64,000 nt of DNA, taken from Roseibacterium elongatum DSM 19469 (GTDB taxonomy: Bacteria > Pseudomonadota > Alphaproteobacteria > Rhodobacterales > Rhodobacteraceae). The stretch covers positions 1,655,001-1,719,000 of the forward strand of contig NZ_CP004372.1 of assembly GCF_000590925.1 (NCBI RefSeq). Reading direction: 5' to 3'. Positions within the stretch are counted from its first letter, which is position 1; every line of letters begins with the position of its first letter. The notes beneath the pieces are model-generated. The model was not told the origin of the DNA. It made no database searches and saw only the letters and a program-made list of their open reading frames with translations. A program made the position numbers and the translations under genes. Shown here in pieces: positions 5,913-27,051 of this stretch.

Positions 5913-6692
5913 TCAGAGCTGTCGCTCGACCATCATCTTCTTGATCTCGGCGATGGCCTTGGCCGGGTTCAGATCCTTGGGGCAGGTCTTGGCGCAGTTC
6001 ATGATCGTGTGGCAGCGATAGAGTTTGAACGGATCTTCCAGATCGTCCAGACGCTCGCCCGTCGCCTCGTCGCGGCTGTCGATGATCCAGCGATAGGCAT
6101 GCAGCAGCGCGGCCGGCCCAAGGTAGCGGTCGCCGTTCCACCAGTAGCTGGGGCACGAGGTCGAGCAGGAGGCGCACATCACGCACTCATAAAGACCGTC
6201 GAGTTTCTTGCGATCCTCGATCGACTGGCGCCATTCGTGTTCGGGGCGCTGCGTCTTGGTCTCCAGCCACGGCATGATGCTGGCGTGCTGGGCGTAGAAA
6301 TGCGTCAGGTCCGGGATCAGGTCCTTGACCACGGGCATGTGGGGCAGGGGGTAGATCTTCACGTCGCCCTTGATCTCGTCCATGCCGTAGATGCAGGCCA
6401 GCGTGTTGATGCCGTCGATATTCATCGCGCAGGACCCGCAGATGCCCTCGCGGCAGGACCGGCGGAAGGTCAGCGTGGGGTCGATCTCGTTCTTGATCTT
6501 GATCAGCGCGTCCAGAACCATCGGCCCGCACGTGTCCATGTCGACCCAGTAGGTATCGACGCGCGGGTTTTCGCCATCGTCGGGGTTCCAGCGATACACC
6601 TGGAACTTGCGCAGGTTCGTGGCGCCCTCGGGCTTGGGCCATGTCTTGCCGGTCTTGATGCGGGAATTCTTGGGCAGGGCCAGTTCAACCAT
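5913..6692 (-). CDS. sdhB: Succinate dehydrogenase iron-sulfur subunit
   Basis: Electron-transfer subunit of complex II, 259 residues. It passes electrons from the SdhA flavin to quinone through three clusters. All ligands are visible: the [2Fe-2S] set Cys80/85/88/100 (CREGICGSC...C), the [4Fe-4S] set in [11 protein letters not shown] (170-180), and the [3Fe-4S] set in [14 protein letters not shown] (227-237). Last gene of the sdhCDAB operon, 33 bases after sdhA and followed by an intrinsic terminator. Confidence 0.97.
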
Positions 6693-6725
6693 AATGCTTT
6701 CTCCGGTCTCGGTCCGTCGGGCGCG

Positions 6726-8552
6726 TCAGTAGACGCGCGCCTTGGGCTTGATCTTGTCGAGGTCGATGCCGCCCTCGTTGTGCCCGATCAGCGGGTTCAG
6801 GTGCACAGGGCGGTAATCCAGGTCGACCTTCTCGCCATCGACGACGGCCAGTGTGTGCTTGCGCCAGGTTTCGTCGTCGCGATCGGGGTAATCCTCGTGC
6901 GCGTGGGCGCCCCGGCTTTCCTTGCGCGCCTCGGCCGAGACGATGGTGGCCATCGCGTTCGGCATGAGGTTGGTCAGCTCCAGCGTTTCCATCAGGTCCG
7001 AGTTCCAGATCAGCGACTTGTCGGTCACATGAAGGTCGTCGAGCTTGGAGGCGACGCCTTTCATCTTTTCGACCCCCTCGGCCAGCGTCTTGTCGGTGCG
7101 GAAAACGGCGGCGTCGGCCTGCATCGTCTTTTGCATCTCAAGGCGCAACTCGGCGGTCGGCGTGGCCCCGTTCGCATGGCGGATGCCGTCGAAGCGCGCC
7201 AGCGCGTAGTCGAGCGAGGCGCGCGGCACGTCCGGCGTCGCCTCGGACGGGTCCACCACCTCGGCGGCGCGAATGCCGGCGGCCCGCCCGAATACCACAA
7301 GGTCGATCAGGCTGTTCGAGCCAAGGCGGTTCGCCCCGTGCACACTGGCACAACCCGCTTCGCCCACGGCCATCAGGCCGGGCACGATCGCGTCGGGGTT
7401 CTTTTTCGTCGGGTTCAGAACCTCGCCCCAGTAGTTCGTGGGGATGCCGCCCATGTTGTAATGCACCGTCGGCAGCACCGGGATCGGTTCCTTGGTGACA
7501 TCGACCCCGGCAAAGATGCGCGCCGATTCCGAGATGCCCGGCAGGCGCAGGGCCAGCGTTTCGGGCGGCAGGTGGTTCAGGTGCAGGTGGATGTGATCCT
7601 TGCCCTCGCCCACGCCGCGGCCTTCGCGGATTTCCATCGTCATGCAGCGCGATACCACGTCACGGCTGGCCAGATCCTTGTAGGTGGGCGCATAGCGTTC
7701 CATGAACCGCTCCCCCTCGGAATTGGTCAGGTAGCCGCCTTCGCCACGCGCCCCCTCGGTGATCAGGCAGCCCGCGCCATAAATTCCGGTCGGGTGGAAC
7801 TGCACGAACTCCATGTCCTGTAGCGGCAGGCCCTGGCGCGCGACCATGCCGCCGCCGTCGCCGGTGCAGGTATGCGCCGAAGTGGCCGAGAAATAGGCGC
7901 GGCCATAACCGCCCGTGGCCAGCACGACCATCTTGGAGCGGAAGACATGCAGCGTGCCGTCATCCAGTTTCCACGCCACGACGCCGACGCAGCGGCCGTC
8001 CTCGGTCATCAGCAGGTCGGTCGCGAAATACTCGATGTAGAATTCCGCGTTGTTCTTCAGCGACTGGCCATAAAGCGTATGCAGGATGGCATGCCCGGTG
8101 CGGTCGGCGGCGGCGCAGGTGCGCTGCACCGGGGGGCCTTCGCCGAACTCGGTCGTGTGACCGCCAAAGGGGCGCTGATAGATCTTGCCCTCTTCGGTGC
8201 GGCTGAACGGAACCCCGTAATGCTCCAGCTCGTAGACGGCCTTGGGCGCCTCGCGGGCGAGGTATTCCATCGCGTCCGTATCACCCAGCCAGTCCGACCC
8301 TTTCACGGTATCGTACATGTGCCAGTGCCAGTGGTCCGGCCCCATGTTGCCAAGGCTGGCGGCGATCCCGCCCTGGGCTGCGACCGTATGGCTGCGCGTC
8401 GGGAAAACCTTGGTCACGCAGGCGGTCTTGAGGCCCTGTTCGGCCATGCCAAGCGTGGCGCGCAGGCCCGATCCGCCGGCCCCCACCACCACGACGTCAT
8501 AATCGTGCTCGGTGATGTCATAGCTTGCCGTCATGTTTGTCATGTCTTTCAT
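6726..8552 (-). CDS. sdhA: Succinate dehydrogenase flavoprotein subunit
   Basis: Catalytic subunit of complex II, oxidising succinate to fumarate; 608 residues, a full-length family member. The N-terminal FAD-binding motif is GAGGSG (24-29). The covalent-flavin histidine is His55 in [10 protein letters not shown]. Further signatures are [23 protein letters not shown] (in part) and the capping-domain active-site region with its conserved arginines. The first ATG gives [12 protein letters not shown]; the ATG five codons in is an equally plausible start. Short 18-base gap after sdhD. Confidence 0.97.
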
Positions 8553-8570
8553 CGCGGAACCTCTCCTGCT

Positions 8571-8942
8571 TCAGAGCGCGATTTGCGCCAGCGCGACGAT
8601 GCCGGCCGCCGCGATGGCGTAGCTGACAATCGTCATGGCGATGATCCAGATCTTGCGCGCCAGACCCTGCACATAGTCCTCGATCAGCGTTGTCACACCG
8701 AGGCGGAAGTGATGCATGCCCACAACCAGAAAGGCCGCGACGACCAGCGCCGGGATCGGCCGCCCGAGGCTGGCCACAACCTCGGCGTGTGTCGCGCCCA
8801 GCAGCGGCCCGATCACGGCCAGGAAAAACGGGGTCAGAACAAGCAGCGCCACCGAGGTGACGGTCATGCTCCAGAAGTGATGCGTGCCGGTATGGGCCGA
8901 ACCCAGCCCTTCGACACGCTTGCGGTCGGTCATGTAGCCCAT
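8571..8942 (-). CDS. sdhD: Succinate dehydrogenase membrane anchor subunit
   Basis: Integral membrane anchor of complex II, 123 residues with three hydrophobic helices (about 27-45, 62-78, 98-122). The loop HHFRLGVTTLIEDYVQG (77-93) contains the conserved His and Asp-Tyr used for quinone and haem contacts in this family. An internal ATG at 8933 (MTDRKR) is a possible alternative start. Twelve-base gap from sdhC. Confidence 0.92.
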   Translation of the reverse strand: MGYMTDRKRVEGLGSAHTGTHHFWSMTVTSVALLVLTPFFLAVIGPLLGATHAEVVASLGRPIPALVVAAFLVVGMHHFRLGVTTLIEDYVQGLARKIWIIAMTIVSYAIAAAGIVALAQIAL

Positions 8943-8953
8943 GGCGTGTCTCC

Positions 8954-9337
8954 TCAGATCGCGATCAGTGTCAGGAAGGTGAGCGCGACCGATCCGATGA
9001 TCATGCCCCAGCCCATCTTGTCGGCGGTGTCCACCTCGAGGCCGCGTCCGGTGTCCCAGATCAGGTGCCGCACGCCGCCAAGCGCATGATACCAAAGGCC
9101 GAGCACCGACAGCGACATCACGATATCGCCGAGCACCGAGGTGATCAGACCGTTCACCGTGTCGAAATAGGCCGCCCCCGTGGCCGCCGCGATGAGCCAC
9201 CAGACGATCAGCACCGCCGAGACCAGCATCGCGTTGCCGGTGATGCGGTTCAGGATCGAAGTGATGGAATTGAGCTGCGGGCGGTAGACCTGCAGATGCG
9301 GTGACAGCGGACGGTTGCCGCGGTTCACGTCGGCCAT
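8954..9337 (-). CDS. sdhC: Succinate dehydrogenase cytochrome b556 subunit
   Basis: Haem-binding membrane subunit of complex II, 127 residues. The N-terminus RPLSPHLQVYR is the family signature. Three hydrophobic helices follow, and the axial haem ligand His84 lies in YHALGGVRHLIWDTGRG. First gene of sdhCDAB. Longer in-frame readings exist upstream, but they run through the operator and promoter region and do not resemble SdhC, so the ATG at 9337 is used. Confidence 0.95.
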   Translation of the reverse strand: MADVNRGNRPLSPHLQVYRPQLNSITSILNRITGNAMLVSAVLIVWWLIAAATGAAYFDTVNGLITSVLGDIVMSLSVLGLWYHALGGVRHLIWDTGRGLEVDTADKMGWGMIIGSVALTFLTLIAI

Positions 9338-9469
9338 GGCGGACACCCCTTTTGGTTGAGCTGTGGTCGGGTCGTTTGCCCATATCCATAGCGGGTTTTG
9401 CGGAACTGTCACGTCGAATGGCAAGAAATCGGGGCCGAATCCTGGGTCTAAACGCCGCAATTTGCATTT

Positions 9470-9500
9470 TGTGATCACGAAATTTCAACGTGTGATCACG
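9470..9500 (-). promoter_or_regulatory. Tandem GTGATCAC operator upstream of sdhCDAB
   Basis: Two perfect palindromes GTGATCAC at 9471-9478 and 9492-9499 with starts exactly 21 bp apart (two helical turns), about 134 bases before the sdhC start. In the operon sense a plausible -35 (TTGAAA) lies between the boxes. The same arrangement and spacing precede sucC at 16348-16376. The rest of the 9338-9695 gap holds the promoter region and a palindrome pair, with no gene. Confidence 0.75.
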
Positions 9501-9643
9501 AACTGTGCGCCTCGTCACGGTCTTGGCGATGACAAACACCGCGGTGCCGCCGCCCTGCGCAAGGGCCCGTCGCTCAGCAGCGGAAACCGCCCCGGCACAT
9601 CGCACAGAGATCCCGCACACGGCGCACCGATCGACAAACGCCT

Positions 9644-9688
9644 GTCCGGAAAACGCGAGTTTTCCGGACGGTTTTCTCGAGAAAACCG
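9644..9688. repeat. Palindrome pair after mesaconyl-CoA hydratase gene
   Basis: GTCCGGAAAAC-GCGA-GTTTTCCGGAC (9644-9669, 11-bp arms) is followed immediately by the perfect palindrome CGGTTTTCTCGAGAAAACCG (9669-9688). It lies directly after the mch stop on the minus strand. In the gene sense the CTCGAG-centred palindrome comes first, as it does after selU. Confidence 0.75.
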
Positions 9689-9695
9689 GCCCCGC

Positions 9696-10751
9696 CTAGA
9701 CGGGCATCAGCGCCCAGTAGTCGAGGTCCAGCAGGACATGCGGCAGGTACTTGCCATCCTCGCCCTTCAACTGCCCGGCCATGCCGCCCTCTTTCACCGC
9801 GACCAGCCGCAGGCGGATCGCGCCAACGCCCGGCGCCGGCGTTTCGGCGATCTCCAGCACCTCGGACCAGGCGCGCACGGTGTCGCCTGCGAAACACGGG
9901 TTGGTGTGGCTGCCGCCGTTGATCGCGACGAGGCATTGCGCATTGGCCAGCCCGTTGAAGGACAGTGCCCGCGCCATCGACATGACGTGACCGCCATAAA
10001 TCAGGCGCTTGCGATCCTCGCGCGGGGTGGCGTCGAAATGGGTTTTCGACGTGTTCTGCCACAGGCGCGTGGCCATCATGTGCTCGGCTTCCTCGATGGT
10101 GACGCCATCGACATGGTCGATGACCTCGCCCACCTGATAATCCGACAGGCGATGCGGCTCGCCGGCCTGGACGAAATCATAGGCCGAAAAATCGATCCCG
10201 CCGGGCATGACCAGCTTTTCCGGTTTCACCGACGGGGCAAGCTCGGGCACCACCGTTTCGGGCGCGGGGGCATCGAGGTCGCGTTTGCGCACCATCACCC
10301 AACGGGCGAATTCCATCACCGCCAGACCGTGCTGGTTGCGCCCCGTGGTGCGCACATACACCACCCCGGTCTTGCCCGAACTGTTCTGTTTCAGCCCGAT
10401 CACCTCGGACGAGGACCGGATCGTGTCGCCCACATAGACCGGCCGCAGCCAGCGCGCCTCGGCATAGCCGAGATTGGCCACCGCGTTCAGCGAGACATCC
10501 GGTACCGATTTGCCGAACACGATGTGAAACGCCGCCAGATCGTCCAACGGGCTTTCGGGCAGCCCGCTGGCGCGCGCGAACTCGTCCGAGGAATAGAGCG
10601 CGTGGCGCGCCGGGTAGAGCGCGTGATAGAGCGCCCGCTCGCCGCCCGATACCGTGCGCGGCACCGCATGCTGGATCACGTCGCCGACGGTGTAATCCTC
10701 GAAGAAACGGCCGGGGTTGGTCTTGGCCTGCGGGCCTGCATCCTTGGGCAT
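9696..10751 (-). CDS. mch: Mesaconyl-CoA hydratase (beta-methylmalyl-CoA dehydratase)
   Basis: Two-domain MaoC/hot-dog hydratase of 351 residues that interconverts mesaconyl-CoA and beta-methylmalyl-CoA, a late step of the ethylmalonyl-CoA pathway. The N-terminus GRFFEDYTVGDVIQHAVPRT and the first hydratase-like half are followed by a second MaoC half (EPHRLSDYQVGEVIDHVDGV), ending LDLDYWALMPV. It is the last gene of an operon with a malyl-CoA thioesterase/lyase paralogue, and ecm lies at the window edge, which supports the pathway assignment. Only four bases separate it from the DUF1737 gene. The stop runs straight into the palindrome pair. Confidence 0.9.
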   Translation of the reverse strand: MPKDAGPQAKTNPGRFFEDYTVGDVIQHAVPRTVSGGERALYHALYPARHALYSSDEFARASGLPESPLDDLAAFHIVFGKSVPDVSLNAVANLGYAEARWLRPVYVGDTIRSSSEVIGLKQNSSGKTGVVYVRTTGRNQHGLAVMEFARWVMVRKRDLDAPAPETVVPELAPSVKPEKLVMPGGIDFSAYDFVQAGEPHRLSDYQVGEVIDHVDGVTIEEAEHMMATRLWQNTSKTHFDATPREDRKRLIYGGHVMSMARALSFNGLANAQCLVAINGGSHTNPCFAGDTVRAWSEVLEIAETPAPGVGAIRLRLVAVKEGGMAGQLKGEDGKYLPHVLLDLDYWALMPV

Positions 10752-10755
10752 GAGG

Positions 10756-10959
10756 TCACTGCGCTCCCAGTTTCATGTCAGGGGAATAGGGGGTGTCTAC
10801 CTCTTTGGTGACGGCCTGCCCGCAGCGCATCACGCCGCGGGCCGCGTCAAAGGCGTATTGCGGGTCGCCATATGGCGTCCACCCCTTCGCGATCGCCTCC
10901 GACACCTTGTGGCAAAAGGCCTGCGTGTCGTCTTCGGTCAGGAAGCGGTAGAGGGTCAT
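10756..10959 (-). CDS. DUF1737 small protein
   Basis: A 67-residue cytoplasmic protein starting MTLYRFLTEDDTQAFCHKVS and containing KGWTPYGDP, typical of the DUF1737 family. No catalytic residues can be assigned and the function is unknown. Its start overlaps the end of the NnrU-like gene (ATGA), and mch follows after four bases, so it is translated within the mcl2-mch operon. Confidence 0.8.
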   Translation of the reverse strand: MTLYRFLTEDDTQAFCHKVSEAIAKGWTPYGDPQYAFDAARGVMRCGQAVTKEVDTPYSPDMKLGAQ

Positions 10960-11519
10960 GCGCCCCCCACGGGGAAGGGGTAATACCCCAGCCAGGTGTG
11001 GATCAGCGCGACGATGCCATAGAGCACCAGCGCCACACCAAAGGCGATCGCGTCGTTCTTGACGCTGGGATTGGCGGGGCGCTCCCAGGTCGGTTCGGCC
11101 TTGTTGATCAGGATCACCGACAATACCGCCCAGAACAGCATGCCCCCGAACAGCAGGATCGAGGCCAGATCGCCGTTCACCAGCAGGTGCCCAACCGCCC
11201 AGCTTTTCACGCCGGTCAGCTGTTTGTGGCGCACGCGGGCCGACATCGTGCCGGCGACGCCCGAAAGCGCAAAGAACCAGAACCCGATCAGCACCAGCAG
11301 GTTGCTGATATGGATCATGAAACTCGGCGGAACCCAGACGGTCACCAGCGCGGCCGACCGATAGCCGATCACCATCAGCACGATGGCGGCCAGCAGCGCC
11401 ACGGCCACCAGCCCCTTGCCCTTGTCGCCCATCGCGGCCCGCTTGGCCGGGACCAGCCGCTTGAACAGATGCCCGCCGATCCAGAGCGCGATGCCGAGAA
11501 TAAGTAGTAGGTAGCCCAT
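10956..11519 (-). CDS. NnrU family membrane protein
   Basis: Integral membrane protein of 187 residues in the NnrU family (named for a nitric-oxide-related gene, with no proven activity). It has about five hydrophobic helices starting at the N-terminus (MGYLLLILGIALWIGGHLFK), and family features such as HISNLLVLIGFWFFA and the HTWLGYYPFPVG end. A longer frame reads upstream, but ATG at 11519 begins the first helix. It sits between two ethylmalonyl-CoA pathway genes, which says more about operon membership than about nitrogen metabolism. Confidence 0.85.
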   Translation of the reverse strand: MGYLLLILGIALWIGGHLFKRLVPAKRAAMGDKGKGLVAVALLAAIVLMVIGYRSAALVTVWVPPSFMIHISNLLVLIGFWFFALSGVAGTMSARVRHKQLTGVKSWAVGHLLVNGDLASILLFGGMLFWAVLSVILINKAEPTWERPANPSVKNDAIAFGVALVLYGIVALIHTWLGYYPFPVGGA

Positions 11520-11590
11520 GGTAGCCTCTCCACTGCTGCCGAATTGCGTTGCTTGCGGACCTGACACGAGTGCGGGCCGCAAGCAAGATG

Positions 11591-12466
11591 TCAGGCGGCC
11601 TCGGCGGCCTCCAGCTCGGCAATGGCGCGCGCCTTGGCCAGCGTGGCGCGGGCGGTGTCGACATGCAGGTTTTCGACGATCTTGCCATCGACCACGGCCA
11701 CGGCCTGACCTTCGGCCACGGCCTCCTCATAGGCGGCGATCTGTCGGCGGGCGAGGTCGATCTCGTCGTCCGACGGGGCGAAGACCTCGTTCGCGATCGC
11801 GACCTGCGCGGGGTGGATCACCGTCTTGCCGTCGAACCCGTAATCGCGCCCTTCCTCGCATTCGGCACGCAGACCCTCCTCATCGCGGAACGCGTTGTAG
11901 ACACCGTCGACGCAGACGATGCCATGCGCGCGCGCCGCCAGAAGACAGGTCTGCAACGAGGTCAGCATCGCGCCACGCGTGCGGCTGCCCAGTTCCTTGG
12001 CCAGGTCGTTGGTGCCCATGATGAAGCCCGCCATGCGCGGGGCCTCGGCGATATGCATCGCGTTCAGGATGCCCATCGGCGTTTCCATCATGGCCCAGAT
12101 GGTCGTGTTCGCGGTCTCGGAATAGGCATCCAGCCGGTCGGCCAGTTTCTCGATATCGGTGGCCTTGTTCACCTTGGGCACGAGAATCGCCTGCGGCCCG
12201 ATTGCGGCGATGGCGTCCAGATCGTCATTGCCCCATTCTGTGTCGAAGCCATTGATGCGCACCAGCTGCGCGCGCGGGCCATAGCCGCCCCGGGCCAGTG
12301 TTTCGGCCAAAAGCTTGCGTGCATTGGGTTTTTCCTCGGCCGCGACGGCATCTTCGAGGTCGAAGATGATCGCGTCCACGGCCATGGTCTTGGCCTTTTC
12401 AAGCGCCCGGGGCTTGGAGCCCGGAATATACAGAACCGACCGATACGGGTGCGCGCGATGTCCCAT
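11591..12466 (-). CDS. mcl2: (3S)-malyl-CoA thioesterase / malyl-CoA lyase paralogue (Mcl2-like)
   Basis: Citrate-lyase-beta family enzyme of 291 residues. From family knowledge it fits the Mcl2 branch (MGHRAHPYRSVLYIPGSK start, IIFDLEDAV, AMMETPMG, GTNDLAKELGSR, FDGKTVIHPAQ) rather than the longer Mcl1 lyase. Mcl2 hydrolyses (S)-malyl-CoA to malate and CoA, completing the apparent malate synthase reaction of ethylmalonyl-CoA pathway organisms. The acidic residues in LEDA and MMET are the expected metal ligands. The start is set by an excellent GGAGGG site five bases before ATG. First gene of a four-gene operon with nnrU-like, DUF1737 and mch. Mcl1 activity cannot be excluded. Confidence 0.8.
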   Translation of the reverse strand: MGHRAHPYRSVLYIPGSKPRALEKAKTMAVDAIIFDLEDAVAAEEKPNARKLLAETLARGGYGPRAQLVRINGFDTEWGNDDLDAIAAIGPQAILVPKVNKATDIEKLADRLDAYSETANTTIWAMMETPMGILNAMHIAEAPRMAGFIMGTNDLAKELGSRTRGAMLTSLQTCLLAARAHGIVCVDGVYNAFRDEEGLRAECEEGRDYGFDGKTVIHPAQVAIANEVFAPSDDEIDLARRQIAAYEEAVAEGQAVAVVDGKIVENLHVDTARATLAKARAIAELEAAEAA

Positions 12467-13898
<1,432 letters not shown>

Positions 13899-13919
13899 TC
13901 GGCGGTCTTTGAGAAAGCC

Positions 13920-13948
13920 AAAGGGCGGCCCTGGTGGCCGCCCTTTTT
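13920..13948 (+). terminator. Intrinsic terminator of mdh
   Basis: AAGGGCGGCC-CTGGT-GGCCGCCCTT forms a ten-pair stem followed by a T-run (13944-13948), about 20 bases after the mdh stop. It also separates mdh from the convergent secreted-protein gene. Confidence 0.93.
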
Positions 13949-13954
13949 CGTGGC

Positions 13955-14902
13955 TCATTGCGATGGCACGTTGCGCTGATGCACGTAGCGTCCGCCGATA
14001 TGTCGCCAGACGCCATAGGGCTGGTTGATCCCACGGTAGTTCTGTACCCAGAGGTCGGGAAACCCCTCGGACAGCTGCGCGGTATCCAGCCAGGCCGCCA
14101 CGCCGGTGGTCTGGTAGGCCGGCCGAAGCGCACCACCCGGCGCGGCGGTGAAGACGAATGTGCCCACCCCCGTGATGCCGTAGCTGTATGTGCTCACCCC
14201 ATGCTCCACCACCAGGATGCGCCGGCCATCCGGCAGGGCAGCCAGGCTGGCTGACACATCCGTTTCAGGCTGTTGCGCGAGGACGCCCGCCATGACTTGC
14301 GCGGCCAGCGCCGTCGCCTGCGGGTCGCGCAGCTGCGGGTCCACGCGGACGAAGCGCGCGCCATCGGTTGCGGGCGTGACCACCGGCGCGGTCAATGGGG
14401 CCGCACCGCAGGTGGCCATGGCGCGATCCACCGCCGCCGGGCGGTTGCCCAGCACATAGGGCAGGGGGTTCGAGTCCGCCTGATACAGCGCGACGGTCAC
14501 GCTTTGCGCGTTGCGCAAGGCGCGCAGCAACGTGCCATGGCGGGACGGGTCATAGGGGATCGCTGCATGCTGGTACTCCACCAGGTTCAGCGGCGTCATG
14601 TAGAGGCGGTGGGTCTGCCCGCCATCCACCCGAATGAACACGGGCAAGAGCGGCTCATGACCGAATGCACCGCCAAAAGCCACCAAGCCGATTTCGAACG
14701 GCCCGCCACCGCGGCAGGTCAGCATCAGGCAAGCGGCATTCTCGCCGCGGGTCCAGCAGGCCCCTTGCCCCGGCCCAAAGCGGTCGGGGTCGAAGATCGG
14801 GCCCCAGCCATTCGTCTGGGCGGTGGCTGACCCAAGGGCCGCACCCGCCAGGCCGACCAGCACAGCCGCCCCTATGGCGCGACCGACGGTAAGAATGCGC
14901 AT
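13955..14902 (-). CDS. Secreted protein of unknown function
   Basis: A 315-residue protein with a clear Sec signal peptide (basic MRILTVGR, then AAVLVGLAGAALGSATA with probable cleavage before QTNGW). The mature part has paired cysteines (ACWTRGENAACLMLTC) and an N-terminal half resembling an invasion-associated-locus-B-like or periplasmic beta domain, but I cannot assign a family. The C-terminal half has VVEHGVSTYSYGITG and ends VWRHIGGRYVHQRNVPSQ. The start is chosen at the ATG that begins the signal peptide; an upstream in-frame ATG is less suitable. It converges on mdh and diverges from pepT. Confidence 0.75.
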   Translation of the reverse strand: MRILTVGRAIGAAVLVGLAGAALGSATAQTNGWGPIFDPDRFGPGQGACWTRGENAACLMLTCRGGGPFEIGLVAFGGAFGHEPLLPVFIRVDGGQTHRLYMTPLNLVEYQHAAIPYDPSRHGTLLRALRNAQSVTVALYQADSNPLPYVLGNRPAAVDRAMATCGAAPLTAPVVTPATDGARFVRVDPQLRDPQATALAAQVMAGVLAQQPETDVSASLAALPDGRRILVVEHGVSTYSYGITGVGTFVFTAAPGGALRPAYQTTGVAAWLDTAQLSEGFPDLWVQNYRGINQPYGVWRHIGGRYVHQRNVPSQ

Positions 14903-15047
14903 CTCAAATCCCTGTTCGCAAACGATAACGTCGGTTGGAAAAATGCCGACCACACCGGGGTTTGGGCAAGGGTTTTCTCATCCGGGGGTGGTTGACTTCA
15001 CCCCCGTCCGGTCGCTTCATCGCCGCGTGACCAAAAGGACGCCGCCC

Positions 15048-16304
15048 ATGCCCCGCGATTTCGACGCCGAACTGGAACAGCGCCTGTTGCGCTACACCGC
15101 CATCGACAGCCAGAGCGACGAGACCTCGCCCAGCCAGCCCTCGACCGCGATCCAGCTCGACATGCAGCACCTGCTGGTGGCGGAATTGAGGGAAATGGGC
15201 GCGCAGGACGTGACCCTCACCGATTATGGCGCGGTGCTGGCCACCATTCCCGGCACCGTGCCGGGCCCGACCATCGGCTTTCTCGCCCATGTCGATACGG
15301 CCCCGCAGTTCAACGCCACCGGGGTCAAGCCGCGCGTCATCCGCGGGTATAATGGCGGCGCGATCACCTACCCCGATGCGCCCGAATTGCAATTGACCCC
15401 CGAGGCGTTTCCCTACCTTGCCGAAAAGCAGGGCCATGACATCGTCACCGCCTCGGGCACGACGCTCTTGGGGGCCGATGACAAGGCGGGGGTCGCGATC
15501 ATCATGACCGCCGCGCGCCAGATGCTGGCCGACCCCGCCATGACACGCGGCCCCGTGCGCATCGCCTTTACCCCCGACGAGGAAATCGGACGCGGTGTGG
15601 ACGAACGCCTGCCGCAGGATCTGGGCGCCGATTTCGCCTACACCTTCGATGGCGGCAAGGTCGGCGAACTGGAATACGAGACCTTCTCGGCCGATGGCGC
15701 CCATGTCGAGATCGAGGGCGTGTCGATCCACCCCGGCTTCGCCACCGGCAAGCTGGTCAACGCCCTGCACCTCGCGGCCAGGATCATCGACATGCTGCCG
15801 CAAGCCACCATGACGCCCGAGACGACCGCCGATCGCGACGGGTTCTGGATGGTGACCGACCTCAATGGCAATGCGGCCCATGCCAGCCTGCGGTTCATCC
15901 TGCGCGATTTCGAGCGCGAGGGCCTGGCCGCCAAGGGAGAGATGATCAGACAGGTCTGCGCCGCTGTGCAGACGACCGAACCGCGCGCCAGGATCACCTG
16001 CGAGATCCGCAAGCAGTATCGCAACATGCGCTACTGGCTCGAGCAGGACATGACGCCGGTCGAGCTTGCGCGCGATGCACTGCGCGAACTTGGGCTGGAG
16101 GCGGTCAGCGTGCCGATCCGGGGCGGCACCGATGGCTCGCGCCTGACGGAAATGGGGGTGCCGTGCCCCAACCTCTTTACCGGCATGCAGAATATTCACG
16201 GGCCGCTGGAATGGATCTCGGTGCAGGACATGGCCCTGGCCACGCGGCTTTGCCTGACGCTGACACAGCGGGCGGTCCAGACCGAGTCGCCGGCGACGTC
16301 CTGA
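15048..16304 (+). CDS. pepT: Peptidase T (tripeptide aminopeptidase)
   Basis: Di-zinc M20 family aminopeptidase releasing N-terminal residues from tripeptides; 418 residues. Metal and catalytic residues are visible: His81 and Asp83 (HVDTA), Asp144 (LLGADDKAG), Glu178/179 (TPDEEIG), a dimerisation-domain HPGFATGK, and the final metal histidine in GGTDGSRLTEMGVPCPN...NIHGPLEW. The ATG at 15048 gives the family N-terminus. A much longer upstream reading would overlap the secreted gene's signal region. No signal peptide, so it is cytoplasmic. Confidence 0.95.
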   Translation: MPRDFDAELEQRLLRYTAIDSQSDETSPSQPSTAIQLDMQHLLVAELREMGAQDVTLTDYGAVLATIPGTVPGPTIGFLAHVDTAPQFNATGVKPRVIRGYNGGAITYPDAPELQLTPEAFPYLAEKQGHDIVTASGTTLLGADDKAGVAIIMTAARQMLADPAMTRGPVRIAFTPDEEIGRGVDERLPQDLGADFAYTFDGGKVGELEYETFSADGAHVEIEGVSIHPGFATGKLVNALHLAARIIDMLPQATMTPETTADRDGFWMVTDLNGNAAHASLRFILRDFEREGLAAKGEMIRQVCAAVQTTEPRARITCEIRKQYRNMRYWLEQDMTPVELARDALRELGLEAVSVPIRGGTDGSRLTEMGVPCPNLFTGMQNIHGPLEWISVQDMALATRLCLTLTQRAVQTESPATS

Positions 16305-16345
16305 GTCGTTTCAGTATGCCGCCGCATACATCTGATGCCGCTAAC

Positions 16346-16377
16346 GTGTGATCACACTTTTTCCGGCTGTGATCACA
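16346..16377 (+). promoter_or_regulatory. Tandem GTGATCAC operator upstream of sucC
   Basis: GTGTGATCACAC (16346-16357, perfect) and TGTGATCACA (16368-16377, perfect). The core GTGATCAC octamers start at 16348 and 16369, exactly 21 bp apart, about 110 bases before the sucC start. The spacing equals that of the pair before sdhC. The half-sites resemble CRP, but they abut without the six-base CRP spacer. Confidence 0.75.
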
Positions 16378-16486
16378 AATGTCGGTTTTTGTAGCCTGAA
16401 CAGGGCTTCGCGCGGTTTTTGCCTGTAATGCGCGTTCCGGTTGTGCTTAAGCGTTAGGCGACTAGCACCAGTGACGGGACAGTTTC

Positions 16487-17680
16487 ATGAACATTCATGA
16501 ATACCAGGCGAAGGCCCTGCTTCGCGACTACGGCGCCCCGGTTTCCGAAGGTCACCTCGTGACCCGGGCCGAAGAGGCAAAGACAATTGCGGGCGAACTC
16601 GACGGACCCATTTGGGTGGTCAAGGCGCAGATCCACGCCGGCGGCCGCGGCAAGGGCCACTTCGTCGAGGAGATCGCGGGCGAAAAGGGCGGTGTGCGCC
16701 TGGCCCGGTCGGTCGAAGAGGCCGCCGAAGAGGCCAAGAAGATGCTCGGCCGTACCCTCGTCACGCATCAGACGGGCCCTGCCGGCAAGCAGGTCAACCG
16801 CGTCTATATCGAAGACGGCTCGGACATCGCCCGCGAGCTGTACCTTGCCTTTCTCGTCGACCGTCAGAGCAGCCGCATCTCGATCGTCGCCTCGACCGAA
16901 GGTGGCATGGATATCGAGGACGTCGCGGCCTCGACCCCCGAGAAGATCCTGAATTTCTCGATCGATCCGGTCACGGGCTACATGCCCTATCACGGCCGCC
17001 GCGTCGCCTTCGCCCTCGGGCTCGAGGGGCCGCAGGTCAAGCAATGCGTGTCGCTTCTCGGCTGCCTCTACAAGGCCTTCACCGAGAAGGACATGGAGAT
17101 GCTCGAGATCAACCCGCTGATCGTCACGACCGACGGCAATCTCAAGCTGCTCGACGCCAAGCTGGGCTTTGACGGCAACGCGCTCTATCGCCAGCCCGAC
17201 GTGGCCGACCTGCGCGACGTGACCGAGGAGGACCCCAAGGAACTCGAAGCGTCCAAATACGACCTCAACTACATCGCGCTCGATGGCGAGATCGGCTGCA
17301 TGGTCAACGGCGCGGGCCTGGCCATGGCGACCATGGACATCATCAAGCTCTATGGCGCCGAACCGGCCAACTTCCTCGACGTGGGCGGCGGTGCGACCAA
17401 GGAAAAAGTGACCGAGGCGTTCAAGATCATCACTTCCGACGAGAACGTGAAGGGCATCCTGGTCAACATCTTCGGCGGCATCATGCGCTGCGACATCATC
17501 GCCGAGGGCGTGATCGCTGCGGTGAAGGAAGTCGGCCTTCAGGTGCCGCTGGTGGTGCGCCTCGAAGGGACCAATGTCGAAAAGGGCAAGGAGATCATCG
17601 CATCCTCGGGCCTGAACGTGATCGCGGCAGACGACCTCAAGGACGGTGCCGAGAAGATCGTCAAAGCGGTCAAGGGGTAA
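16487..17680 (+). CDS. sucC: Succinyl-CoA synthetase beta subunit (ADP/GDP-forming)
   Basis: TCA enzyme subunit of 397 residues that binds nucleotide and succinate and couples succinyl-CoA cleavage to ATP or GTP formation. The N-terminus [16 protein letters not shown] begins the ATP-grasp fold. [12 protein letters not shown] is the nucleotide-binding loop. The C-terminal ligase domain carries [18 protein letters not shown] and [16 protein letters not shown]. First gene of the long suc-lpd cluster, preceded by the tandem operator. sucD follows after five bases. Confidence 0.97.
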
Positions 17681-17685
17681 GGAAA

Positions 17686-18567
17686 ATGGCAGTCCTCGTA
17701 GACAAGAACACCAAGGTCATCTGTCAGGGCTTCACCGGCTCTCAGGGCACTTTCCACTCCGAACAGGCCATCGCCTACGGCACCAAGATGGTCGGCGGCG
17801 TCACCCCCGGCAAAGGCGGCCAGACCCATCTGGACCTGCCCGTCTTCAACTCGGTGCACGAGGCCAGGCACGCGACCGAGGCCAACGCATCGGTCATCTA
17901 CGTGCCCCCGCCCTTTGCCGCCGACTCGATCCTCGAGGCGATCGACGCCGAGATGGACCTGATCGTCTGCATCACCGAAGGCATCCCGGTGCTCGACATG
18001 ATGAAGGTCAAGCGCGCGCTGGAAAACTCGGATGCGGTCCTGATCGGGCCGAACTGCCCCGGTGTCATCACGCCCGACGCCTGCAAGATCGGCATCATGC
18101 CCGGCCATATCCACAAGCGTGGCAAGGTCGGCGTCGTGTCCCGCTCAGGCACGCTGACCTACGAGGCGGTCAAGCAGACCACCGATGTGGGCCTTGGCCA
18201 GTCGACCTGCGTCGGCATTGGCGGCGACCCGATCAAGGGGACCGAACATATCGACGTGCTGGAATGGTTCCTCGCCGATGACGAGACCGAGGCGATCATC
18301 ATGATCGGCGAGATCGGCGGCTCGGCCGAGGAAGAGGCCGCCCAGTTCCTTGCCGACGAGAAGAAAAAGGGCCGCTGGAAGCCGACCGCAGGCTTCATCG
18401 CGGGCCGTACCGCCCCGCCGGGCCGTCGCATGGGCCACGCCGGCGCCATCGTCGCCGGCGGCAAGGGCGGTGCCGAGGACAAGATCGAGGCGATGCAAAG
18501 CGCCGGGATCGTGGTCGCCGACAGCCCCGCCGGTCTAGGCGAGGCAGTCCTGAAAGCGATCGGCTGA
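17686..18567 (+). CDS. sucD: Succinyl-CoA synthetase alpha subunit
   Basis: CoA-binding subunit of succinyl-CoA synthetase, 293 residues. N-terminal CoA-binding Rossmann domain ([19 protein letters not shown]). The phospho-histidine His251 lies in [14 protein letters not shown], and [11 protein letters not shown] is the power-helix region. Only five bases after sucC, so co-translated. A structured GC-rich spacer follows before the next gene. Confidence 0.97.
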
Positions 18568-18796
18568 CATCATGCCCACCCGCGCAGACACATGCCGGAT
18601 CGCAGGGCGGGCCACGGGCACGCGGCCCGTGACCGCCTGGCCGGCCTGCGCGGGGGGCACACCCGGTCGGGACGGGGCACGCCACGCCCGGTCCGTGACC
18701 GCCGGCCGGAACACGCCCCCCGGACAACGGGGGGGCCGTGACATGGCCCGGCAGCCGCAAGGGACAGGCGTATAGCTACGGGGAGGAGCCGCAGCC
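18568..18796 (+). other. Structured GC-rich spacer inside the suc operon
   Basis: Non-coding stretch with two clear hairpins. CACGGGC-ACGCG-GCCCGTG (18613-18631) is enclosed by CGCAGG/CCTGCG (18601-18606 with 18645-18650). CCCCCCG-GACAA-CGGGGGG lies at 18716-18734. Neither has a T-run, so they are probably RNA-stability or attenuation elements between sucD and the downstream genes rather than terminators. Confidence 0.55.
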
Positions 18797-19000
18797 ATGA
18801 CGACGGAAAAGGAACTCAGCCGGATCGCCTATTGGCGCATGGCCCACGGTCTCGGGGCCGCGGCCCTTCTGGCGCTGGCCGCCGCGACCTTCGTCGCGCT
18901 GCCCACCCCGCCGCAAGCCGCGCTCGAGATGGCGCCGCCCGTACCGCTTGGCGTTCCCCTGTCCGAGGGTGCGGCGATCACCATGGCGTCGAACGACTGA
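18797..19000 (+). CDS. Small membrane protein between sucD and sucA
   Basis: A 67-residue protein with a strong ribosome site (GGGGAGGAG). A basic, polar N-terminus (MTTEKELSRIAYWRMAHG) is followed by one hydrophobic helix (about 19-36), then a proline-rich tail likely outside the membrane. I recognise no family. Location between succinyl-CoA synthetase and 2-oxoglutarate dehydrogenase suggests co-expression with the TCA enzymes, but no role can be assigned. It could also be read as an uncleaved signal anchor. Confidence 0.6.
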   Translation: MTTEKELSRIAYWRMAHGLGAAALLALAAATFVALPTPPQAALEMAPPVPLGVPLSEGAAITMASND

Positions 19001-19066
19001 TATTTCACTGCGCCGCCGCGCCCGGTCTTGCGCGCCGGCGGCGACCCGCTCACCAAAGGTGCTCAA

Positions 19067-22027
<2,961 letters not shown>

Positions 22028-22033
22028 CAAGAC

Positions 22034-23557
22034 ATGTCGATCGAAGTTCGCGTCCCCACCTTGGGCGAAAGCGTCACCGAGGCCACCGTGGCCACCTGGT
22101 TCAAGCAACCCGGTGATGCCGTCGCGGTAGACGAAATGCTGTGCGAGTTGGAAACCGACAAGGTGACGGTCGAGGTGCCCAGCCCCGCCGCCGGCACTCT
22201 GGGCGAGATCGTCGCCGGCGAGGGCGACACCGTGGGCGTCGACGCCTTGCTGGCCACGCTCAGCGAAGGCGCGGGCGCGGCCCCCGCCGCCAAGCCCGAG
22301 GCCAAAGCCGAGGCTGCCCCCGCCGCCTCGGACGGTGGGGAAGCCGTTGACGTGATGGTCCCCGCCTTGGGCGAAAGCGTGACCGAGGCGACCGTGTCGA
22401 CCTGGTTCAAGAAAGCCGGTGACAGCGTTGCGCAGGATGAAATGCTCTGCGAGTTGGAAACCGACAAGGTTTCGGTCGAGGTGCCGGCCCCGGCCGCGGG
22501 TGTCCTGTCCGAAATCCTCGCCGCGGAAGGTGATACGGTCGAGGCGGGCGGCAAGCTGGCCCTCCTGACGGCGGGCGAAGGGGCCGCCGCTTCGGCGCAG
22601 GCCAGCGCCCCCGCGCCGACCTCCAGCGCCCCCGCCGCCGGCACCGGCAAGGATGTCGAAGACGCCCCCTCGGCCAAGAAGCTGATGGCCGAAAAGGGCA
22701 TCGATCAGGCCAATGTGCAGGGCACCGGCAAGGATGGCCGCATCATGAAGGAAGACGTGATGAAGGCCGCCTCGGGTGCTGCCGCCGCCGCAACCGCCGC
22801 CGCCCCGGCCCCGGCCCCCGCCGCAGCCCCGCGTGCGCCCAGCCCGGCCGAGGATGCCGCGCGCGAGGAACGGGTCAAGATGACCCGCCTGCGCCAGACC
22901 ATCGCCCGCCGCCTCAAGGACGCGCAGAACACCGCCGCGATCCTGACCACCTTTAACGAGGTGGACATGACCGAGACGATGGCCCTGCGCAAACAGTACA
23001 AGGACGAGTTCGAGAAGAAGCACGGCGTGCGCCTGGGCTTCATGTCCTTCTTCACCAAGGCCTGCTGCCACGCCCTGCGCGAAGTGCCCGAAGTGAATGC
23101 CGAGATCGACGGCAATGAAATCGTCTACAAGAACTTCGTCCATATGGGCATCGCCGCCGGCACGCCCCAGGGCCTTGTCGTGCCGGTCATCCGCGACGCC
23201 GACCAGATGTCCTTTGCCGGGCTGGAAAAGGCGATCGCCGAAAAGGGCAAGCGCGCCCGCGACGGAAAACTGTCCATGGCCGAGATGCAGGGCGGCACCT
23301 TCACCATCTCGAACGGCGGTGTCTACGGCTCGCTCATGTCCTCGCCCATCCTTAACCCGCCGCAATCGGGTATCCTGGGCATGCACAAGATCCAGGACCG
23401 CCCGATGGTCATCAACGGCGAGATCAAGATCCGCCCGATGATGTATCTGGCCCTCAGCTACGATCACCGTATCGTCGACGGCAAAGGCGCCGTGACCTTC
23501 CTCGTCCGCGTGAAAGAGGCGTTGGAAGATCCCCGGCGCCTGCTGATGGATCTGTGA
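22034..23557 (+). CDS. sucB: Dihydrolipoamide succinyltransferase (E2), two lipoyl domains
   Basis: E2 core of 2-oxoglutarate dehydrogenase, 507 residues, about 100 longer than the single-lipoyl enterobacterial form. Two lipoyl domains (about 1-77 and 104-180) each carry the lipoylation site ELETDKV (Lys43, Lys145). Alanine/proline-rich linkers follow, then a peripheral-subunit-binding domain ([15 protein letters not shown]...GRIMKEDV, about 212-248) and the acyltransferase domain ending with the catalytic HRIVDG (His478, Asp482). The lipoyl repeats are 306 bp apart and share long near-identical DNA stretches, suggesting duplication or ongoing gene conversion. E2 with two lipoyl domains is seen in related alphaproteobacteria. 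Confidence 0.96.
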
Positions 23558-23571
23558 AATGGAGATAGAGC

Positions 23572-23994
23572 TTGTTTCGAAAAAACGCCTTAACAGTGAT
23601 CGTGGCCGCAACGTCCATCATGTTGCCCAGCATTTCTTCCAGCCAAGAAGTGCTTTCAGGCACGCCAGCTTTGGAAGCCGCTGTAAGCGCCTTTTATGAG
23701 GGGCTTAACGGGTCAGAGACTCAGATTTCTGGCGCAATTGGCACCCTCTTCGGCGGCGATCGAATCTACTTTGCGGATGGGACGGGGCGATATCGCATTT
23801 TGCTCGATGCGGGGCGCAATGTTCGGCGAGACATTGAAGGGTGTGAGTTGGAATTGTTCGAAACGCTTCAATCGCCATGTCAAATTGAAGGAACGGTAGA
23901 ACTTTCAATCGACGACGAGGACGATAACTTGGCCGATGGTATCGAAATCGAGATGATACTTTTTTCGGTTGAGAGCTTCACGCGCAGCGAGTGA
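23572..23994 (+). CDS. Secreted protein of unknown function inside the suc operon
   Basis: A 140-residue protein starting at TTG with a GGAGATAG ribosome site. Signal peptide: basic MFRKN, hydrophobic ALTVIVAATSIMLPSISSS, cleavage probably before QEV. The mature part is acidic (about pI 4), with two cysteines (GCELELFETLQSPC) that could form a disulfide, and a DDEDDN stretch. No family recognised. The gene and its flanks are visibly poorer in GC, with more relaxed codon use than the surrounding suc genes, which suggests later insertion. It sits between sucB and a MAPEG protein. Confidence 0.65.
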   Translation: MFRKNALTVIVAATSIMLPSISSSQEVLSGTPALEAAVSAFYEGLNGSETQISGAIGTLFGGDRIYFADGTGRYRILLDAGRNVRRDIEGCELELFETLQSPCQIEGTVELSIDDEDDNLADGIEIEMILFSVESFTRSE

Positions 23995-24045
23995 CACGGC
24001 TCATTCGGGTTGAGCTAGTCGGTATTTAAGAAGCAGAGAATTAAA

Positions 24046-24435
24046 ATGACCACCGAACTCACCGTCCTCACCCTCGCCGCGCTCTGGCAGGTCGTGCAGA
24101 TCGCCCTTTTCTCCGTCACGGCGCAGGGGCAGGTCGGCACCGACTATGCCGCCTCTCCGCGCGATGAAAAGCGCGAGTTGACCGGCATCGCGGGCCGCTT
24201 CCAGCGCGCGATGAACAACCATTTCGAGGGGCTGATCCTCTTCGGCATCGCCGCCGTCGTCATCTCGATCTCGGACCAGTCCACCACTGTGACGCAGCTT
24301 TGCGCGCATGCTTACCTGATCTCGCGCATCTTCTACGTGCCGGCCTATGCGCAGGGTCTGACCCCGTGGCGCAGCCTGATCTGGGCGGTGGGCTTTGTCG
24401 CGACCGTCACCATGCTGATCGCGGCGCTGATCTAG
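24046..24435 (+). CDS. MAPEG family membrane protein
   Basis: A 129-residue integral membrane protein of the MAPEG superfamily (membrane-associated proteins in eicosanoid and glutathione metabolism). It has four hydrophobic helices and the signatures GRFQRAMNNHFEGLILF and AHAYLISRIFYVPAYAQGL. Bacterial members may have glutathione transferase activity, but the substrate is unknown. It lies within the suc-lpd cluster, where a MAPEG gene is common in related bacteria, and may be co-transcribed. Confidence 0.88.
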   Translation: MTTELTVLTLAALWQVVQIALFSVTAQGQVGTDYAASPRDEKRELTGIAGRFQRAMNNHFEGLILFGIAAVVISISDQSTTVTQLCAHAYLISRIFYVPAYAQGLTPWRSLIWAVGFVATVTMLIAALI

Positions 24436-24500
24436 GCCCCGCGACGGCCATTTTCATCGCGCGGCGTCCCGCTCTGCCGCGCATCGCAACCCAGCCTCGT

Positions 24501-24530
24501 GTATGTACGGGGTGTGTACAGGGTGTGTAC
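24501..24530 (+). repeat. Three TGTAC units with an 11-bp period before lpd
   Basis: TGTAC occurs at 24504, 24515 and 24526, exactly 11 bp apart, inside three imperfect 11-bp units (GTATGTACGGG, GTGTGTACAGG, GTGTGTACGCC). One-turn phasing about 35 bases before the lpd start suggests a helical array of protein sites, or a simple tandem duplication. Confidence 0.6.
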
Positions 24531-24566
24531 GCCCTGTGACCGCAAGAAATTGGATAGGAGTCCCCC

Positions 24567-25955
24567 ATGTCCCAGTACGATGTCATCGTGATCGGATCCG
24601 GCCCCGGCGGCTATGTCTGCGCCATCCGCTGCGCGCAGCTGGGCCTGAAAACCGCGTGCGTCGAGGGGCGCGAGACGCTCGGTGGCACCTGCCTGAACAT
24701 CGGCTGCATCCCCTCCAAGGCGCTCTTGCATGCCTCGCACCAACTGCATGAAGCGGAACACAATTTCGCGAAGATGGGCCTCAAGGGTAAATCCCCCTCG
24801 GTCGACTGGAAACAGATGCAGGCGTACAAGGACGACGTGATCGGCCAGAACACCAAGGGCATCGAGTTTCTGTTCAAGAAGAACAAGATCGACTGGCTGA
24901 AAGGCTGGGGTTCGATCCCCGAGGCCGGCAAGGTCAAGGTCGGCGACGCGGTGCACGAGGCGAAAAACATCATCATCGCAAGTGGTTCCGTACCCTCCGC
25001 CCTGCCTGGCATCGAGGTCGACGAGAAGGTCGTGGTCACCTCCGAGGGCGCGCTGGCGTTGCCCAAGATCCCCAAGAAGATGGTCGTGATCGGCGCGGGC
25101 GTGATCGGGCTTGAGCTTGGCTCGGTCTATGCGCGGCTGGGCACCGAGGTGCAGGTGATCGAGTTTCTCGACCAGATCACGCCGGGCATGGATGGCGAGG
25201 TCTGCAAGACCTTCCAGAAGCTGCTGACGAAACAGGGCCTGTCCTTCACCCTCGGCGCGGCCGTGCAGAAGGTCGAGGCCACAAAGACCAAGGCGAAAGT
25301 CACCTACAAGCTGCGCAAGGATGACAGCGAGGCGACTGTCGATGCCGATGTCGTTCTGGTGGCGACGGGGCGCAAGCCCTATACCGACGGCCTTGGCCTC
25401 GATGCGCTTGGCGTCGAGATGACCGAGCGCGGCCAGATCAAGACCGATGGCCATTGGGCGACCAATGTGAAGGGCGTCTATGCTATCGGCGACGCCATCG
25501 CCGGTCCGATGCTGGCCCACAAGGCCGAGGACGAGGGCATGGCCGTGGCCGAGGTGGTCGCCGGCAAGCATGGGCACGTGAATTACGACGTGATCCCCGG
25601 CGTGATCTACACCCACCCCGAGGTCGCCAGCGTCGGCCAGACGGAAGACGCCCTGAAAGAGGCGGGCCGCGCCTACAAGGTCGGCAAGTTCTCGTTCATG
25701 GGGAACGGTCGCGCCAAGGCGAATTTCGCCGCCGACGGCTTCGTCAAGATCTTGGCCGACAAGGAAACCGACCGCATTTTGGGCGCGCATATCATCGGGC
25801 CCATGGCGGGGGACCTGATCCACGAGATCTGCGTTGCGATGGAATTCGGCGCCAGCGCGCAGGATCTGGCGCTGACCTGTCACGCCCACCCGACCTATTC
25901 CGAGGCCGTGCGCGAGGCCGCGCTGGCCTGCGGGGACGGGCCGATCCATAGCTGA
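24567..25955 (+). CDS. lpd: Dihydrolipoyl dehydrogenase (E3)
   Basis: FAD-dependent E3 subunit that reoxidises dihydrolipoyl groups with NAD; 462 residues. N-terminal FAD motif [10 protein letters not shown] (10-19). Redox-active disulfide Cys42/Cys47 in [16 protein letters not shown]-binding [18 protein letters not shown]-terminal catalytic HAHPTYSEA with the His-Glu pair acting across the dimer. Clustered with sucAB, it is the E3 of 2-oxoglutarate dehydrogenase. A good AGGAG site precedes the ATG. A SH3-like reading frame begins right at its end. Confidence 0.97.
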
Positions 25956-26396: not shown

Positions 26397-27051
26397 TCAG
26401 GTGGCGAGCAATCGCAGCCCTTGGGTGACATCGGCCCGAACGGCGAGGCGCAGGCCCGGCTCGTCGCCGGCCTTGAGCGCGCCTAGGATCAGTTTGTGGT
26501 GCTGGGGTGGCTCGGTCCGGTTCAATCGCCCGTAGAGCGCCCGCATGGTCGGGCCCATTTGCAACCAGACGGTTTCGGCCAGCGCCAGCATCGCGGGCGC
26601 CTGCGCCCGCAGATAGAGCGTGCGGTGAAACTCGAGGTTGGCGCGGATATAGGCGACGGCATCCCGGGCGGGCGACGTTCTGCGCGATGGCGGCGTTGAT
26701 CGCCTCCATCCGTCGATCGAGGGCGGGGTGGGCGCGGGGCAGGGCGCGGGCCGACAGTTCGGGCTCCAGCAGGGCGCGGATCGCGGCCAGTTCCTCGATC
26801 CGTTCGTTGGACAATTCGGGCGTCGAGACGCGCCCCGAGGCCGACAGGAACAGCGCCCCCTCGGAGACGAGCCGGCGCACCGCCTCGCGCGCGGGGGTCA
26901 TCGAGACGCCGAATTCGCGGCCCAGACCGCGCAGGGTCATGGCCTGACCCGGGCCGACCTCGCCATGCATGATGCGCGAGCGCAGCGCGCGATAGACCCT
27001 GTCATGGGCCACGGCGGCGCCGGTATCGGTCGGGCGGGGGTTCATCAGCAT
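26397..27051 (-). pseudogene. GntR family (FadR/FCD type) regulator, frameshifted
   Basis: The N-terminal winged-helix part is normal (VYRALRSRIMHGEVGPGQ, then FGVSMTPAREAVRRLVSEGAL, about 19-66), followed by ERIEELAAIRALLEPELSARA of the FCD ligand domain. After AINAAIAQNVAR the frame turns to arginine/proline-rich nonsense. The real continuation (DAVAYIRANLEFHRTLYL ... MLALAETVWLQ) is in the next frame and ends at 26397. One extra base in the CCCGGGCGGGCGAC stretch (26663-26676) explains it. FCD regulators sense small organic acids, but the target is unknown. Whether this is a genuine pseudogene or a base-calling error cannot be decided here. Confidence 0.78.

Follow-up and report, generated by a model that had tools for sequence, protein, structure and literature searches.

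The 64,000-nucleotide stretch of Roseibacterium elongatum DSM 19469 analysed here (contig NZ_CP004372.1, positions 1,655,001 to 1,719,000; referred to below as the window) carries a palindrome, GTGATCAC, in duplicate and with fixed spacing upstream of both the succinate dehydrogenase operon and the operon for succinyl-CoA synthetase and 2-oxoglutarate dehydrogenase. This paired element is real and under strong constraint. Each pair is very probably a two-site operator for AkgR, as predicted from the sites, their target operons and a regulator gene in the window; AkgR belongs to the GntR family, and the system is known in kind. This would assign a named regulator to a striking cis-element and define the operator as a strictly phased pair.

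An exact search of the window retrieved four copies of GTGATCAC and no others, at precisely the positions given by the initial annotation. The sites and the two operons that they precede are as follows.

9471 to 9478, no strand: GTGATCAC, promoter-proximal site of the sdhC pair (exact search)
9492 to 9499, no strand: GTGATCAC, promoter-distal site of the sdhC pair (exact search)
16348 to 16355, no strand: GTGATCAC, promoter-distal site of the sucC pair, within TGTGATCACA (exact search)
16369 to 16376, no strand: GTGATCAC, promoter-proximal site of the sucC pair, within TGTGATCACA (exact search)
5913 to 9337, minus strand: sdhC-sdhD-sdhA-sdhB, succinate dehydrogenase (open reading frames [ORFs] and tblastn; presumably one transcript)
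16487 to 25955, plus strand: sucC-sucD-sucA-sucB-(two small ORFs)-lpd (ORFs and homology; presumably one transcript)

The second operon comprises the genes of succinyl-CoA synthetase and, downstream of sucCD, those of 2-oxoglutarate dehydrogenase. The start-to-start distance is 21 bp in both pairs (an N13 spacer), and the half-sites GTGA and TCAC abut with a gap of 0. Counted on the sequence, the pair lies 133 bp from the ATG of sdhC (9337-9335, minus strand) and 110 bp from that of sucC (16487), in agreement with the distances annotated initially. The extended palindrome TGTGATCACA, which had been ascribed to the element in general, is present at both sucC sites but at neither sdhC site; these read TGTGATCACG (from 9470 and from 9491).

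In shuffled versions of the window, GTGATCAC occurs on average 1.09 times, against 4 observed, and four or more copies were reached in 2 of 100 shuffles. Chance repeats without function would be compatible with the abundance of the lone octamer, which is not enriched in the genome (54 copies in 3.56 Mb against approximately 60 scaled from the window shuffle rate). The pairs behave differently. With spacers of N10 to N16 allowed, the whole genome contains exactly two, both with N13 and both inside the window, whereas the expectation for any one spacing, from 54 sites in 3.56 Mb, is approximately 0.0008; a reversed-pattern control gave none. It is therefore the pairing, and not the single octamer, that constitutes the signal. 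Outside the window, TGTGATCACA occurs in this genome only at C1:600958 and C1:1281279 (L003:1501 and L004:1501), as single copies with sugar-nucleotide and radical-SAM-type genes (so named by recognition) nearby, and these are probably chance occurrences.

Among 61 genomes (the present one and 60 relatives, with the same spacers allowed), the pair was found in 33, comprising 31 of 37 inside the family Rhodobacteraceae and 2 of 24 outside it. By hand count, the 31 family genomes hold 56 pairs, 54 with N13 and 2 with N12; the two pairs from outside the family (N14 and N10) precede neither sdhC nor sucC. A larger draw, with spacers of N12 to N14, retrieved the pair in 358 of 394 family genomes (357 of 393 genera), mostly two in each, and the reversed pattern was not seen among the matches listed. 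A further survey of named genomes sampled at least 120 stretches with 127 pairs, their groups being assigned from the record names by general knowledge. Among the matches listed, 101 of these pairs lie before sucC (58) or sdhC (43), in records named Rhodobacterales or only Alphaproteobacteria or Proteobacteria, with two oddities, a metagenome-assembled genome named Robiginitomaculum (L139) and a record named Maritalea mobilis (L132). The other 26 listed pairs lie elsewhere. Twenty-one of them, among the matches listed, belong to clearly unrelated groups (archaea, Actinomycetota, Bacteroidota, Planctomycetota, Elusimicrobia and Pseudomonas), and none of these precedes sdhC or sucC; by arithmetic, approximately 60 chance pairs are expected in the whole 257-Gb collection. 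The remaining five listed are in records named Rhodobacterales; three adjoin mdh near the end of the locus, where sucC would follow (L109, L136, L140), and two fall within coding sequence (L134, L192). The number of pairs, their near-constant spacing and the fact that in hundreds of genomes they stand before two related operons already contradict an origin by chance, which is hardly credible. Nor is the initial annotation refuted by the test that it set itself, since the pairs are neither absent before these operons in relatives nor present at similar rates elsewhere.

Twelve genomes with fewer than two pairs were inspected at sucC and sdhC. Five of them (G008, G012, G018, G021, G033) lack any such palindrome over the 330 bp that precede each gene. 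Six (G011, G013, G016, G023, G030, G034) retain the sucC pair, with N12 in G013, which shows that in these genomes the sucC pair is better kept than the sdhC pair. Near sdhC, one exact palindrome is left in G013, G016 and G030 and none in G011; sdhC was not judged in G034, where a contig edge leaves no trustworthy upstream sequence, or in G023, which gave no sdhA match. The twelfth genome, G025 (79% complete), is uninformative, with no readable sucC or sdhC promoter and a lone sucC match that is a 53% paralogue.

The position of the pairs relative to the putative promoters was compared across the family. The 165 assigned pairs, which include overlapping loci, correspond to 146 distinct promoter sequences, and the 145 without N were analysed. 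At sucC (91 rows, 80 distinct sequences) the pair lies a median of 110 bp from the ATG; at sdhC (74 rows, 66 distinct) the median is 137 bp and the gap varies more. In the window, the candidate promoter elements are as follows.

9407 to 9412, minus strand: putative −35 element of sdhC, GTGACA, beginning 59 bp from the pair (alignment; position counted by hand)
9385 to 9390, minus strand: putative −10 element of sdhC, TATGGA (deduced; position counted by hand)
16424 to 16452, plus strand: putative −35/−10 region of sucC, weakly conserved, 48 to 76 bp past the pair (tentative)

At sdhC, the distance from the pair to the core promoter is steadier than that to the ATG. Searched from 21 bp past the pair, GTGAC, which is part of a −35-like cGTGACa, is present in 59 of 65 sdhC promoters and lies at 58 to 61 bp past the pair in 44 of them, while it occurs anywhere in 11% of shuffled sequences. 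The best −10 falls at 81 to 83 bp past the pair in 39 of the 65, and the sigma-70 score averages 8.03, compared with 7.18 for shuffled sequences. The sucC promoters show a conserved T at positions 48 (66 of 80) and 49 (59 of 80) and a conserved A at 84 (51 of 80) and 85 (49 of 80), but their sigma-70 score is no better than that of shuffled sequences (7.43 against 7.58), and the sucC promoter call is therefore tentative. If it is right, the separation of pair and −35 would be greater at sdhC than at sucC by 11 bp, approximately one helical turn, a difference to be expected of a protein that has to face RNA polymerase when bound.

The initial annotation attributed the sites to an unnamed regulator. 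In passages of PMC6365646, however, which cite Imam et al. 2015, GTGATCAC is reported among the binding sites of AkgR, an activator in Rhodobacter sphaeroides, and passages of PMC4344238 predict that the GntR regulator RSP_0981 controls sucCD, sdh and the 2-oxoglutarate dehydrogenase genes. In PMC5507952, PMC7471390, PMC4419725 and PMC11323563, AkgR appears solely as an entry in the reference list. Among the papers listed for TGTGATCACA, judged by titles and the openings of abstracts, none concerned such a regulator. The window shares two features of the AkgR regulon, with GTGATCAC in the promoters and the sdh, suc and 2-oxoglutarate dehydrogenase genes as targets. RSP_0981 is presumably AkgR itself, which, according to the abstract of Imam et al. 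2015, reportedly activates tricarboxylic acid (TCA) cycle genes directly.

A gene that fits this regulator was located through genome G079. Its cytochrome b is 100% identical to the structure sequence 5kkz, which we take to be from R. sphaeroides, so that G079 is presumably R. sphaeroides-like. This genome has pairs with 21-bp spacing before sucC (2729961, 2729982) and sdhC (2734765, 2734786). Just beyond sdhB it has a GntR gene (2739663-2740310). Two anchors from passages of PMC4344238 relate its coordinates to the RSP numbering; RSP_0488/0489 lie near 2.223 Mb, where G079 has a GntR match (C4:2223102), and RSP_0974-6 are the sdh genes, found in G079 at 2.735 Mb. RSP_0981 should therefore sit near 2.74 Mb, which fits the GntR gene past sdhB. 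The GntR gene beside lpd in the window is the orthologue of this gene, and the same metallopeptidase gene adjoins both.

26406 to 27048, minus strand: akgR orthologue with GntR helix-turn-helix (HTH) and FCD regions, frameshifted (homology to the AkgR of G079; profile matches)

The view of an unnamed regulator is thus not supported, given the AkgR site report, the RSP_0981 prediction and the akgR orthologue beside lpd. The arrangement differs from that of the AkgR (RSP_0981) regulon of Rhodobacter (Cereibacter) sphaeroides, which has the same palindrome, operons and orthologous regulator gene near the cluster, in that akgR stands beside sdhB there and beside lpd here, where the assembly shows it frameshifted. 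A more distant parallel is PS417_07240, a GntR protein of the deoxyribonate cluster of Pseudomonas simiae. In passages of PMC6365646 it is a proposed binder of GTGATCAC and is 32% identical to AkgR, but the site lies at −47 to −40 relative to the start codon, before the catabolic cluster to which the protein belongs, and those passages do not mention pairing.

One AkgR dimer would occupy each perfect palindrome, and with a 21-bp spacing the two dimers would lie on the same helical face, which suggests cooperative contact between them. From approximately 45 to 60 bp upstream of the −35 region, the dimers would activate sdhCDAB and sucCD-sucAB-lpd jointly, and consecutive steps of the TCA cycle would thereby rise and fall as one. 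Direct predictions follow for the coordination by AkgR of succinyl-CoA synthetase, 2-oxoglutarate dehydrogenase, succinate dehydrogenase and, in one relative, fumarase.

The cAMP receptor protein (CRP) recognizes a box of the form TGTGA-N6-TCACA, with half-sites 6 bp apart. The TGTGA of the present element resembles a CRP half-site, but the gap is 0 here against 6 bp in the CRP box, in keeping with the initial view that these are regulator sites of a non-CRP kind. CceR (RSP_1663) also controls central carbon metabolism in R. sphaeroides, with sdh in its regulon in passages of PMC11323563 and in the predictions of PMC4344238; according to these passages it belongs to another protein family (LacI) and has another motif. 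The predicted CceR motif in PMC4344238 is [AGT]GTT-N6-8-AAC[ACT], and GTGATCAC does not fit the inverted repeat GTT-N6-8-AAC given there. That the pairs are sites of a CRP/FNR-type or CceR-type regulator is very improbable.

The membership of the window gene in the FCD-type GntR proteins is indicated by two profile matches above their cut-offs, one to the GntR HTH (49 bits, cut-off 27) and one to FCD (43.6 bits, cut-off 24.3) at 26433-26681, in another frame and covering profile positions 38-121 of 125. In the AkgR of G079, residues 1-127 correspond to 27048-26668 (73% identity) and residues 129-214 to 26663-26406 (87%), the latter in a different frame. The gene sits at a place shared with relatives. 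Compared with the same-genus genome G003, the protein identity is 98% and 97% on the two sides of the break, which consists of three clustered single-base indels with a net change of +1 that puts most of the FCD region out of frame. In our reading, akgR is the only real gene so broken when 40 kb each of G003 and G001 are compared with the window; the other multi-frame matches in this comparison look like antisense or neighbouring ORFs. The break may reflect recent gene loss or a local error of sequencing or assembly; if real, it offers a natural experiment on whether the sites function in the absence of AkgR.

Sequence flanking the cluster was retrieved from 18 relatives that carry the pair. 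In nine of them (G001, G003, G004, G007, G010, G014, G015, G017, G020), akgR lies near lpd, with 71 to 83% identity and an open frame of 213 to 216 residues. The best 120 of 7339 AkgR-like proteins include some named for Ruegeria, Phaeobacter, Loktanella, Yoonia and Marivivens, and of these genera Ruegeria, Phaeobacter and Yoonia also carry the pair. Two distinct AkgR-like proteins (P0153, P0166) bear the name of Parasedimentitalea psychrophila, and two copies are possible in some genomes. Among 11 akgR upstream regions (those nine relatives, G079 and the window), a single GTGATCAC lies within approximately 20 bp before the akgR start in three (G007, G017 and G020; L244:14491, L251:1660 and L253:8639), which suggests negative autoregulation in some relatives.

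Several observations weigh against AkgR as the protein that acts on the pairs. Because of the frameshift, AkgR may be non-functional in this strain even though its pairs are intact. In nine of the 18 pair-bearing relatives (G009, G013, G022, G024, G027, G029, G031, G035, G036) akgR was not found in the fetched flanks, although it may lie elsewhere, as no genome-wide search for akgR was made. No GTGATCAC occurs within 150 bp upstream of akgR in 8 of the 11 regions, including that of G079, and the sdhC pair is not universal where the sucC pair is kept, as the six genomes inspected demonstrate.

The main alternative is that a paralogous GntR/FCD protein, encoded elsewhere in this genome (C1:1996352-1996990), is the principal or an additional binder of the pair. 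This protein was at first taken for AkgR, as its presence tracked that of the pair, and was dropped when its G079 orthologue (C4:468999, 74% identical) proved to lie at 469 kb, with sdh at 2.735 Mb. That distance, together with the other GntR gene past sdhB, shows that the paralogue is not RSP_0981, and it shares only 27% identity with the G079 AkgR. Co-occurrence was tabulated by hand in 347 family genomes with completeness of 90% or more and contamination of 5% or less, with the paralogue searched at E ≤ 1e-30 and at most 7 candidates scored per genome. For 17 genomes that the paralogue search did not list, absence from the list was taken as absence of the paralogue. Paralogue and pair occur together in 313 genomes and both are missing from 17; nine have the paralogue without the pair, of which six are weak matches and three (G068, G137, G318) strong. 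Furthermore, the five genomes with no palindrome before either gene have no good paralogue, with copies of 54 to 55% in G008 and G021 and none in G012, G018 and G033. However, the paralogue is a core gene of the family and the genomes are not independent, so that such co-occurrence is expected anyway. At the same search settings, 8 of the 347 genomes have the pair without the paralogue. Within the upstream flanks fetched, GTGATCAC is found at just 1 of 30 paralogue loci (94 bp away, in L073), and passages of the literature name AkgR, whose chromosome position is that of the other gene. Binding by the paralogue is therefore unlikely, and it is also doubtful that AkgR and this core GntR protein both act on the phased pairs across Rhodobacteraceae, the second having taken over the TCA operons in lineages such as the present one, where akgR would be decaying. 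In the genome under study, the paralogue (L044:1501-2139) stands beside a HAD-type phosphatase gene (named by recognition).

With AkgR as the preferred regulator, the near-fixed phasing, the tie of the sdhC pair to its core promoter, the site before akgR itself, a fumarase pair and the broken akgR are additions to the passages of the AkgR literature cited here, and may have been published elsewhere. The fumarase pair is a third one in G070 (C16; L293:4294-4322), where GTGATCAC-N13-GTGATCAC lies 124 bp before a class II fumarase-like gene (fumC), a name that we take from recognition of the start of the sequence and not from a family scan. If this gene belongs to the regulon, the regulated stretch in that genome would span 2-oxoglutarate to malate. 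Three or four pairs occur in some family genomes (for example, G163, G219, G258 and G323). In G050, which belongs to another family, an N14 pair (C1; L007:1501-1530) lies between TonB-receptor-like and hydrolase-like genes (named by recognition), with a GntR match approximately 2.6 kb away.

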